Part shown: positions 42,091 through 45,855 of the stretch, one piece after another | Layout of the letters: every line of letters starts with the position of its first letter | How positions within the stretch are numbered: position 1 is the first letter of the stretch | Assembly: GCA_028749475.1 (NCBI GenBank) | Contig: JAQVWN010000002.1 | Coordinates: 62,001 to 126,000, forward strand | Direction: 5' to 3' | Source of the DNA: Thomasclavelia sp. | Lineage (GTDB): Bacteria; Bacillota_I; Bacilli_A; Erysipelotrichales; Coprobacillaceae | Length of the DNA: 64,000 nt | The notes under the pieces: generated by a model | The model's input: only the letters and a program-made list of their open reading frames with translations | The model's database searches: none | Told to the model about the DNA's origin: nothing | Position numbers and translations under genes: made by a program

Positions 42091-42110
42091 GATATAAGAG
42101 GGTGAAAATA

Positions 42111-44732
42111 ATGGTAAAACAATTAGATAGTAAATATAACCATTTAACAGTAGAAAAAAATAAATATCAAACTTGGATAGATAAAAAATACTTTGAGGCG
42201 GGAGACTTAACTAAAAAACCTTATAGTATTGTTATTCCTCCTCCTAATGTTACTGGAAAACTACATTTAGGACATGCTTGGGATACTACTCTTCAAGATA
42301 TGGTATGCCGATATAAAAGAATGCAAGGCTATGATGTTTTATGGCTTCCAGGAATGGATCATGCCGGAATTGCTACACAAGCTAAAGTTGAAGCTCGAAT
42401 GAGAGAAGAAGGAATTTCTAGATATGATTTAGGAAGAGAAAAATTCTTAGAAAAAGCTTGGTCATGGAAAGAAGAATATGCTTCTATTATTAGAGCACAA
42501 TGGGAAAAACTAGGTTTGTCTTTAGATTATTCTAAAGAAAGATTTACTTTAGATGAAGGACTTAGTGATGCTGTTAAAGAAGTATTTGTAAAGTTATATG
42601 AAAAAGGATTAATTTATCAAGGTGAAAGAATTATTAACTGGGACCCAGTTCAAAGAACAGCCCTTTCTAATATTGAAGTAATCCATAAAGAAATACCTGG
42701 ACATATGTATTATTTCAAATACAAAGTAGTAGAAAATGGACAAGAGTTAGTAATTGCTACTACACGTCCAGAAACAATGTTTGCTGACCAAGCAATCTTT
42801 GTTCATCCAGATGATGAACGATACAAAGATATTGTTGGAATGCATGCGATTAACCCTGCTAATGGTGATGAACTGCCAATCATGGCTGATAGTTATATTG
42901 ATATGAGTTTTGGTACAGCTGTAATGAAATGTACGCCAGCTCATGATCCAAATGACTTTGCTCTAGCTAAAAAATATAATTTAGAAATGCCAGTATGTAT
43001 GAATGATGATGGTACGATGAATGAAATGTGTGGTAAATATACTAACATGGATCGTTTTGAATGCCGTGAAGCGTTAGTTAATGATTTTGAAAAGGCTGGG
43101 GTTGTTGATCATATTGAAGAACATACTCATCCTGTTGGTCACTCAGAAAGATCAGGAGCTATTGTAGAACCATATCTTTCTAAACAATGGTTTGTAAAAA
43201 TGAAACCTTTAGCTAAAGCAGCTTTAGAACTTCAAAAAACTGATGATAAAGTTAACTTTGTTCCTGAAAGATTTGAAAAAACATTTACTCAATGGATGGA
43301 TAATATTGAAGATTGGTGTATTTCGAGACAACTTTGGTGGGGACATCGTGTACCCGCTTGGTATCATAAAGAAACTGGAGAAGTATATGTTGGTAAAAAA
43401 CCACCTGAAGATATTGAAAACTATAAACAAGATGAAGATGTTTTAGATACTTGGTTTTCATCTGCATTGTGGCCATTTAGTACGATGGGATGGCCTAATA
43501 CAGAAGATCCATTATTTAAAAGATACTTTCCTACTAATACATTAGTTACAGGTTACGATATTATATTCTTTTGGGTAAGTAGAATGATTTTCCAATCTAA
43601 AGAATTTACTGGTAAAGCTCCATTTAAACATGTTTTGATTCATGGGCTAATTAGAGATGAACAAGGAAGAAAAATGTCTAAATCTTTAGGAAATGGTATT
43701 GATCCAATGGATGTTATCGATGAATATGGGGCGGATTCATTAAGATGGTTCTTAACAACTAATTCAGCTCCTGGAATGGATCTTAGATACACTTCTAATA
43801 AACTAGAAGCTTCTTGGAACTTTATTAATAAGATTTGGAATTCTGCTCGATTTGTATTAATGAATTTACCAGAAGATGCTAAATATCAAGATATTGATAG
43901 TTCTAATCTTAATCTTTGTGATAAATGGATTTTAAATCGTTTAAATAATGTTATTAAAGAAGTTGAAACAAACATGGACAAATTTGAATTTGTTAATGTT
44001 GGAAGTGAACTTTATAAATTTATATGGAATGATTTTTGTTCATGGTATATTGAACTTAGCAAAGTTCATTTAAATAGTGAAAATGCAAAAGAAAAAGAAG
44101 CTAGTTTAAATACACTTGTTTATGTATTAAATGCGATTGTAAAAATGTTACATCCTTTTATGCCATTTGTTACTGAAGAAATATATCAAACAATTCCTCA
44201 TTTACATGAATCTATTTGTTTATCTTCTTATCCTCAAATAAATGATGAATTTAATAATGAAGATATTGCTGATCAATTCGATTATTTAATTGATGTTATT
44301 AAAGGAATTAGAGAAATAAGAACTGAATATACAATTAAGAATTCTATCGATGTTGAATACTCTATATCAACAAGCAATAAACAATTAAAAGAATTATTAG
44401 AAACTTGCCAACCATATATTACTAAATTATGTAATGGTAAATGTATTGGTTACAATATTGATAATTCTGATGATATTGCTACTAAAACAATTAAAGGTGG
44501 TAATTCATTAATTGTTGAACTTGGAAACTATGTAGATAAAGAAGCTGAAAAAGAAAAGTTAGTTAAAGAACTTAAAAGACTAGAAGGAGAAATCAAACGT
44601 AGTAATGGAATGCTTTCTAATGAAAAGTTTGTATCAAAGGCTCCTAAAGCAAAAGTAGATGAAGAAAAAGCTAAATTAGAAGATTATAAAGCTAAATATG
44701 AAACTACTAAGCAACAACTAGATAACCTATAA
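42111..44732 (+). CDS. valS: Valyl-tRNA synthetase
   Basis: 873 residues, full length. The class I signatures are HLGHAWD (HIGH) near residue 45 and KMSKS near 520. An editing domain lies between, with [17 protein letters not shown]; a helical anticodon-binding region follows, and a C-terminal coiled-coil tRNA-binding arm (about 805-873). It charges tRNA-Val. GAGGG is upstream of the ATG at 42111; a GTG at 42102 is in frame but inside the ribosome binding region. Controlled by the T-box. Confidence 0.97.
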
Positions 44733-44737
44733 TTATT

Positions 44738-44768
44738 AACCGTAAATAATATTATTTACGGTTTTTTT
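44738..44768 (+). terminator. Terminator of valS
   Basis: A perfect 26-base palindrome (AACCGTAAATAAT with ATTATTTACGGTT) followed by a T run. Confidence 0.92.
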
Positions 44769-44801: not shown

Positions 44802-44843
44802 ATGAGGATAGTTAGTGGAATGTAGTAGCCTCTAAAAAGGAGG
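44802..44843 (+). promoter_or_regulatory. Possible translation-control leader of the GG-peptide genes
   Basis: CCTC at 44829-44832 can pair either with GAGG at 44804-44807 or with GAGG of the ribosome binding site (44840-44843). Pairing with the second would hide the site. A 7-codon frame (ATG 44802 to TAG 44825) overlaps the first GAGG, so its translation could shift the balance. This is a structural inference only. Confidence 0.3.
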
Positions 44844-44850
44844 AAATGAA

Positions 44851-45009
44851 ATGAATGAATTATGTATTATGGATCAAATGGAAGTCAGTGGTGGTGGAGT
44901 AGGTACAGTTCTTATTTGTATAGTTGTCGGAGCTGGCGTTTATAAGATTATTAGGTCAGCCAGAGGAAGAATATCAATTCCTAAATTCTTATCATTGGAG
45001 TGGCGCTAA
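44851..45009 (+). CDS. Double-glycine-leader peptide 1 (bacteriocin- or signal-like)
   Basis: 52 residues. The N terminus MNELCIMDQMEVSGGG matches the double-glycine leader pattern (ELxxxxMxExSGG) that PCAT-type ABC exporters cut. The predicted mature part (about 37 residues) is a glycine-rich hydrophobic helix, GVGTVLICIVVGAGVY, followed by a basic, amphipathic tail with four Arg and two Lys. This resembles one half of a two-peptide bacteriocin. AAAGGAGG lies 7 bases before the ATG. The stop overlaps the start of peptide 2 as TAATG. No transporter, immunity or kinase gene is in the window. Confidence 0.8.
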   Translation: MNELCIMDQMEVSGGGVGTVLICIVVGAGVYKIIRSARGRISIPKFLSLEWR

Positions 45010-45134
45010 TGAAAGAACTAACAAAAAAACAAATGCAAGAAACTAGTGGTGGAGGAATAATCATGTTTGGAATCATCCGCTATTTATTTAAAAGCATTTA
45101 TTTTGCAGGTCCAATAAGAAGGTGTATAAGATAA
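45009..45134 (+). CDS. Double-glycine-leader peptide 2 (bacteriocin- or signal-like)
   Basis: 41 residues. The leader MKELTKKQMQETSGGG is an even clearer double-glycine leader than that of peptide 1. The mature part is about 26 residues, hydrophobic and basic: GIIMFGIIRYLF, then KSIYFAGPIRRCIR with four Arg, one Lys and one Cys in total. The start overlaps the stop of peptide 1, so the two are translated as a pair, and a terminator follows at once. Both leaders share the pattern but the mature parts differ, as in class IIb bacteriocins. Confidence 0.8.
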   Translation: MKELTKKQMQETSGGGIIMFGIIRYLFKSIYFAGPIRRCIR

Positions 45135-45160
45135 GGAAAGGTATTACCTTTCCTTTCTTT
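45133..45160 (+). terminator. Terminator of the GG-peptide pair
   Basis: A 9-bp stem (AAGGAAAGG with CCTTTCCTT), loop TATTA, then TTCTTT. It begins at the peptide 2 stop codon. Confidence 0.88.
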
Positions 45161-45168
45161 AATGAATA

Positions 45169-45855
45169 ATGAAAGTTAGAGAATATCCATTAACTAAAAG
45201 ACCTCGAGAAAAAGCTTTATTATATGGCTTTGGTAGCTTGTCTGATGAAGAAGTTTTAGCAATCATACTGCATACAGGTTCTTTAGATAAGTCAGCCATA
45301 GAATTGTCTCAAGAAATCATTAAAGATGTCGATGGTATTAATAATCTAAAATATATTACTATTAATGAACTAACAAAATATAAAGGTATTAAGGAAGCTA
45401 AAGCTATTACTATTCAAGCAAGTATTGAACTAGCAAAAAGAATTCTTAGTACTAGCAAACAGGAAAAACAGGTTATTAAATCTCCTATTGAAGCTTATAA
45501 AATAATTAGAAATCAAGTTTTGTTTGAGCATAACGAAAGAGTGATTGTCTTGTGTTTAAATTCTAAATTAGAAATAATAAGAAATAGAACGATTTCGATT
45601 GGAACAATCGATGGTTCTATGATGTGTAGTAATGATATTGTAAAAGAAGCGTTAATATGTGGATCTAATCGGATAATGATATTTCATAATCATCCTAGTG
45701 GAAATCCTGTACCATCTAAGGAAGATATTGAGTCCACTAAAAAACTTGAAAAAATATCAAATGAATTAAATATTGAACTAGTTGATCATATTATTGTAGG
45801 AAATAATTGCTTTTATAGTTTTAAATCCAAACAGATAATTCATGTAGAAGATTAA
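45169..45855 (+). CDS. radC: RadC / JAMM-domain protein
   Basis: 228 residues. An N-terminal helix-hairpin-helix-like part (REKALLYGFGSLSDEEVLAIILHTG) is followed by the JAMM/MPN domain with HNHPSGNPVPSKEDIE supplying two His, Ser and Asp. The family was once linked to DNA repair; the true role is uncertain. The start matches family N termini, but there is no ribosome binding site and the ATG lies only 8 bases after a terminator tract, so expression may be low or rely on readthrough. radC before mreC is a common order. Confidence 0.92.
   Translation: MKVREYPLTKRPREKALLYGFGSLSDEEVLAIILHTGSLDKSAIELSQEIIKDVDGINNLKYITINELTKYKGIKEAKAITIQASIELAKRILSTSKQEKQVIKSPIEAYKIIRNQVLFEHNERVIVLCLNSKLEIIRNRTISIGTIDGSMMCSNDIVKEALICGSNRIMIFHNHPSGNPVPSKEDIESTKKLEKISNELNIELVDHIIVGNNCFYSFKSKQIIHVED

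Follow-up and report, generated by a model that had tools for sequence, protein, structure and literature searches.

The window, a 64 kb stretch of a Thomasclavelia genome that was analysed as a whole, contained two short genes between valS (42102–44732, forward strand), the upstream syntenic marker, and radC (45169–45855, forward strand), the downstream marker of the peptide throughout the class. The first gene, pepA (44851–45009, forward strand), encoded 52 aa from an ATG at 44851 to a TAA at 45007–45009, and its product began MNELCIMDQMEVSGGG. The second, pepB (45009–45134, forward strand), encoded 41 aa from an ATG at 45009 to a TAA at 45132–45134, with a product beginning MKELTKKQMQETSGGG, and the two reading frames overlapped as TAATG. 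The ribosome binding site of pepA, AAGGAGG, was read at 44837–44843 (forward strand). An intrinsic terminator of valS (44738–44763, forward strand) set this gene apart from the peptide pair, and terminator prediction placed another 3′ of pepB (45133–45155, forward strand); two were thus found at the locus, compared with 0.2 expected in shuffles. These results confirmed the coordinates of the first-pass annotation, which had described overlapping genes of 52 and 41 codons with double-glycine (GG) leaders, a strong ribosome binding site and their own terminator.

Alignment of ten upstream regions displayed an element in the 5′ UTR of pepA (44804–44832, forward strand) with a conserved core (G/T)TTAGTGG and the flanks GAGG/CCTC. 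The flanks could pair, and the element was a candidate small hairpin or regulator site. An Rfam search at the locus, this element included, gave no RNA family match.

PepA comprised the leader MNELCIMDQMEVSGG, a single hydrophobic helix GTVLICIVVGAGVYKII and a conserved C-terminus RSARGRISIPKFLSLEWR. The leader positions L4, D8, V12 and G14G15 followed the double-glycine pattern (a GG, GA or GS end, L(-12), E(-8), and hydrophobic residues at -7 and -4). In the alignment of family peptides, L(-12) and G(-2) were each found in 28 of 29 sequences, and position -7 was Gln, not hydrophobic, in much of the family. PepB carried a leader of the same kind (MKELTKKQMQETSGG); its core was basic and hydrophobic and unlike that of PepA, in agreement with the first description of two different mature parts. 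The only ORFs of 30–75 aa with an M-x-E-L...GG leader in the window were pepA and pepB, and shuffled windows (n = 60) held a mean of 0.017 such ORFs per window. PepB was above the curated cut-off of the NCBIfam family TIGR01847 (bacteriocin_sig; 16.7 vs. 15.7 bits), and PepA gave no match to it. Scans with Pfam and PADLOC identified no family for either peptide. Both were real genes, as first observed.

The genes neighboring the peptide were valS, radC and mreC, plus a SPOR-domain gene in most genomes of the family; no immunity gene was found at the locus, and no two-component or other receptor gene adjoined the peptide or the C39 peptidase locus in the loci read. The SPOR-domain product, a membrane-anchored protein of 120–130 aa, was encoded in the pepA-radC interval of most Coprobacillaceae (L033:5013 region, L003, L045, L037, L042, and L040), and that of Thomasclavelia cocleata matched PF05036 (E 4e-11). 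This protein was not an obligate partner of the peptide, because the window genome contained no PF05036 match at all. The linkage to radC, and to mreC in Erysipelotrichales, may represent ancestral gene order only.

Thomasclavelia belongs to Coprobacillaceae in the NCBI taxonomy, and 43 genomes of this family (f1) from 20 genera were searched at the DNA level and then with a profile. The pepA gene was present in 40 of the 43 genomes and 18 of the 20 genera, including Thomasclavelia, Faecalibacillus, Massilimicrobiota, Longibaculum, and Candidatus Stoquefichus. It lay between valS and radC where the loci were readable, and wherever radC could be read it was the next gene downstream or nearly so. 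The products shared the pattern M-x-E-L...GG, a helix ending (L/V)GA(A/G)xYK, and a tail (K/R)S-x-x-G(R/K)ISIP(K/R)xxSIEW, and the C-terminus was near-invariant across the family. The gene was under purifying selection (pN ~0.15–0.22 vs. pS ~0.6; average pN/pS 0.25–0.35). No peptide was found in genome G009 in the family search, and none was detected in G010 though the exporter was present at a contig edge; G024 was an incomplete genome. Comparison of these genomes indicated that pepA is a core gene that is passed on vertically and keeps its position. The pair had first been taken for an orphan one, and a lineage-specific orphan pair was not supported.

The situation of pepB was different. Most pepA loci had no pepB, and pepB-like second peptides were observed in Thomasclavelia-type genomes, where they differed greatly from one another. 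Conservation of the frames in relatives therefore applied widely to pepA and in a limited lineage to pepB, which is a fast-changing paralogue and is probably handled by the same exporter as pepA. Of the pair, only pepB was lineage-limited and fast-changing, as expected of a bacteriocin-like partner. The pepA gene was single-copy in most genera, and three or four tandem copies existed in some. In one genus with three to four tandem PepA paralogues, some helix motifs were altered (L010, L016, L017, L019, and L121). Genome G002 (L113, 3620–4036) contained three differing GG-leader peptides in tandem; the last was the PepA homologue, and two cores were unrelated to PepA. The PepA homologue of G004 (L110, 3929–4090) had GE replacing GG, and this genome retained a full C39-ABC exporter.

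The window genome (1.84 Mb, 43 contigs, 98% complete) contained exactly one Peptidase_C39 match (G000:C31:52682-53068, E 5.5e-32), which was not on the contig of the peptides. The gene (G000:C31:52643-54712) encoded a 689 aa exporter with the C39, transmembrane (TMD) and ATPase (NBD) domains in one chain (PF03412, PF00664, and PF00005). The Walker A (GEVASGKT), LSSGQ and VLILDE motifs were intact, and the catalytic C, H and D were aligned, so that the protein had the complete composition of a PCAT. It was located between an argD-like aminotransferase and ybeY-cdd-era-recO. The first-pass annotation had seen no peptidase-exporter within 64 kb and had suggested that a distant one served the pair. 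Both statements agreed with the single full C39-ABC upstream of ybeY on another contig, which may handle these peptides, and complete absence of such an exporter from the genome was not the case. Genes with the same leader were also sought across the genome with the family profile, which recovered pepA and, weakly via its leader, pepB, and no others.

A full-length C39-ABC was found in every pepA-bearing genome of f1 except G001, which was 69% complete. It adjoined the aminotransferase in most loci examined, and in the loci read for ybeY it immediately preceded this gene. The ybeY-linked gene of G009 had lost the catalytic Cys position, as read by eye, and Walker A. Together with the missing peptide, this state was in line with joint decay. 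Across the lineages studied, the ybeY-linked C39 protein displayed three architectures, namely C39-TMD-NBD, C39-TMD without an ATPase, and C39 alone.

The last of these forms was found in the sister family f2. Distant homologues of pepA were present in 29 genomes of f2 and were upstream of radC in all 17 loci read. The leaders varied: some ended in GG and others in GK, GS, GR or GL, some of the latter in C39-bearing genomes. Some peptides had no leader and started straight at the helix after a strong ribosome binding site, e.g., MTTSSLLLYVAIVAGIAAIYKLLTSGRGRVSIPGIEMTWGK. The slot upstream of ybeY, which was the phoH-ybeY interval in several genomes, was occupied by a bare C39 protein of 111–127 aa. 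Where both genes were read, a ybeY-linked C39 accompanied the leader-bearing peptide in 16 of 16 genomes (G057, G197, G260, G261, G263, G273–G278, G280, G282, and G284–G286) and the leaderless peptide in none of eight (G046, G053, G252, G272, G296, G297, G298, and G300). Leader and C39 were thus lost jointly. The Fisher value of the association was 1.4e-6 by genome and 0.012 by genus, in samples that are not independent. On the RadC tree, in which G262 and G603 were labelled by clade and not by a C39 read, the leaderless state corresponded to up to three changes, and the sign test was powerless because only one or two independent pairs were available. The pattern is striking, and few events underlie it, with one to three independent losses.

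When 13 C39 sequences were aligned (12 bare proteins of f2 and the domain of the window genome, with identities down to 19%), the catalytic Cys, His and Asp were the sole invariant columns. The predicted protease structure (pLDDT 91.5) gave its best PDB match to 6mpz (TM 0.76), a protease for GG motifs whose structure includes the bound leader peptide.

Of 395 genomes sampled from the class, a widened profile detected the peptide in 81, which represented 43 genera. The family comprised peptides of 40–80 residues with one helix, and the common form in the class was ELTxxExxxIKGGE(L/A)T-helix-(Y/F)RLFxSxxGxxTIPGGFKFTW. In 18 of 20 further loci radC was next or nearly next, often in the order valS-peptide-radC-rplU-rpmA-obg. 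C39 was over the Pfam cut-off in 54 of the 55 peptide-bearing genomes of other families. Most of these proteins (the form of families f8 and f19) were 380–420 aa long and consisted of C39 and a transmembrane domain. Neither an ABC_tran match nor Walker A was found in any of the 16 analyzed, so the ATPase of a PCAT was lacking. Of the 23 loci read, 16 had ybeY as the next gene, and the predicted structure (pLDDT 87.6) aligned to PCAT1 across the protease and the TMD with a TM score of ~0.7.

Two genomes, G464 and G583, used in-frame TGA for Trp. In G583 a C39-ABC gene immediately preceded ybeY; in G464 it was one gene away (L290 and L291). Their GG peptides (L289 in G583 and L255 in G464), candidate substrates of these transporters, had a conserved Trp encoded by TGA, and the neighbors of the peptide were rplU in G464 and ileS and lspA-like genes in G583. 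The extension to these genomes was tentative because the peptide scores were weak (E 1.6e-5 and 8.4e-4).

Lineages without an ATPase kept both the peptide and the protease, and lineages without C39 kept a leaderless peptide. This implied that those lineages can do without powered export by this system, and that what all the forms share is a small peptide crossing the producer's own membrane once. We consider it somewhat probable (roughly 0.55) that C39 cuts the PepA leader and that the product is the producer's own membrane micropeptide in N-out/C-in orientation, and not a bacteriocin. PepA would be made as a precursor with a GG-type leader, and this leader would dock on a C39 cysteine protease dedicated to it, whose gene has a conserved position of its own just upstream of ybeY. 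Cleavage after GG would yield a 37-residue product. The mature peptide would span the membrane once, with its uncharged N-terminus outside and its basic conserved tail, (K/R)S-x-x-GRISIP-x-x-x-x-EW, inside. It would act at or within the producer's membrane in a structural, regulatory or envelope role and not as an antimicrobial weapon; pepB, with the same kind of leader, would be co-translated with pepA. The C-flank of the helix was more basic than the N-flank in 33 of 33 aligned peptides, and N-out/C-in insertion was therefore predicted, by a positive-inside logic that is not valid for an ABC-exported peptide. Counting against this explanation are the few independent losses behind the leader-protease association, the intact NBD motifs of the exporter in the window genome and its family, the GK, GS, GR and GL sequences in some C39-bearing lineages of f2, which are noncanonical sites, and the exporter of G010 with no detected peptide.

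Here, three other explanations were weighed. In the first, mature PepA leaves the cell through the C39-ABC together with PepB and is perceived by neighbors, either as a pheromone or as a surface-active peptide. Since the NBD motifs of the window-genome exporter are intact, secretion of the peptide may well occur there, and release of PepA outside the cell is possible in all lineages with a full exporter, the window genome included. The leader is also near the PCAT consensus, with L(-12), E/Q/D(-8) and a hydrophobic residue at -4; the consensus is L(-12)xxxE(-8)L(-7)xxxxGG, and cleavage by PCAT1 is strictly coupled to translocation (PMC6959990). The product is small, basic and conserved, and pneumococci also have GG peptides that lack an adjacent receptor (PMC7595303). 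However, the same core was kept in ATPase-less, bare-C39 and leaderless C39-less lineages, and no two-component or receptor gene was beside either locus in those read. A secreted signal was thus possible and, on balance, rather unlikely.

The second is the two-peptide (class IIb) bacteriocin proposed in the first-pass annotation, in which PepA and PepB would jointly hit competitors. The peptides resemble class IIb families (lactobin A/cerein 7B, TIGR03949, and TIGR01847) in leader type, in a small basic hydrophobic core with small-residue, GxxxG-like helix motifs, and in the pairing of genes in some genera. The genes overlap, PepB passes the TIGR01847 cut-off, six family members weakly match the cerein/lactobin family, and tandem paralogues occur in some genera. 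Unlike class IIb systems, however, pepA had neither an immunity gene nor a linked exporter, and it was conserved vertically at one place across the class with a near-invariant C-terminus. Class IIb peptides are always encoded together and with a dedicated adjoining immunity gene, whereas most pepA loci had no pepB. Sister lineages had an ATPase-less exporter, only its protease, or neither exporter nor leader, and in the last of these the peptide persisted without any C39. This explanation was improbable, and PepA looks less like a weapon than like a housekeeping or signalling peptide. The last and least probable, that the ybeY-linked C39 serves another substrate and co-occurs with the radC-linked peptide through shared ancestry, would fit the few independent losses and G010, with GG peptides of the window genome sought by the family profile in a non-exhaustive search for C39 substrates, but the window genome had one peptide locus and one C39, the leader went exactly where C39 went in f2, and in G009, in which no peptide was found, both the Cys position and Walker A were missing from the ybeY-linked gene.

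If PepA is a processed micropeptide of the producer's own membrane, the pair may further represent an undescribed maturation route of small membrane proteins, which we put forward tentatively and at slightly less than even odds. A core, radC-linked GG precursor would be served by a dedicated ybeY-linked C39, and the exporter would have lost its parts step by step, from C39-TMD-NBD to C39-TMD, to a lone C39, or to no C39 at all with a peptide that has no leader; the function in the own membrane would have been kept throughout. The route would operate in Erysipelotrichales and in several families of this class that have small genomes, and it may extend to genomes with the mycoplasma code. To our knowledge, nearly all GG-leader peptides described are bacteriocins or pheromones, and accessory clusters usually encode them. 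Here, the GG-leader chemistry would serve a pair of core genes that are inherited vertically in a whole class, common gut commensals included, and the ATPase-less or protease-only exporters could be regarded as a natural dissection of the purpose of the C39 domain. No description of the pair was found in the open-access literature on GG peptides of Erysipelotrichaceae or Coprobacillus, on C39 of mycoplasma or Mollicutes, or on stand-alone C39.

The exporter of the window genome shared with PCAT/AMS systems (PCAT1, ComA, and LahT) a C39 with Cys-His-Asp, a TMD and an NBD, and the peptides shared the substrate leader with L(-12), an acidic residue or Gln at -8, a hydrophobic residue at -4, and GG. 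The predicted folds of the C39 proteins matched PCAT1, ComA and 6mpz. Unlike in PCAT/AMS systems, substrate and exporter were encoded at two conserved housekeeping loci distant from each other, and related lineages ran the pair without an ATPase or with C39 alone. The pneumococcal core peptides VP1 and BriC are likewise conserved GG peptides without a neighboring two-component receptor (PMC7595303). No sequence relation to pepA was found beyond the leader, and VP1 and BriC differ in a far narrower taxonomic range and in full PCATs only.

The window-genome exporter had its best family match in NF045998, the Mbov_0121 family of mycoplasma peptidase-containing ABC proteins, as had the C39-TMD and the bare C39 proteins that were scanned. 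The window-genome exporter (307 bits) was a relative and not a member of this family because it was below the cut-off of 500, and the two exporters of the TGA=Trp genomes scored 526.7 and 758.4. No description of a substrate of the Mbov_0121 family was found in the open-access literature, and for the C39 transporters linked to ybeY in mycoplasma-code genomes, PepA-like peptides would offer a candidate substrate type. Genome G371 contained a separate full C39-ABC (L294) adjoining a radical SAM/SPASM-type protein; it was distinct from the ybeY-linked C39-TMD gene (L295) of the same genome and looked like part of an ordinary modified-peptide cluster.
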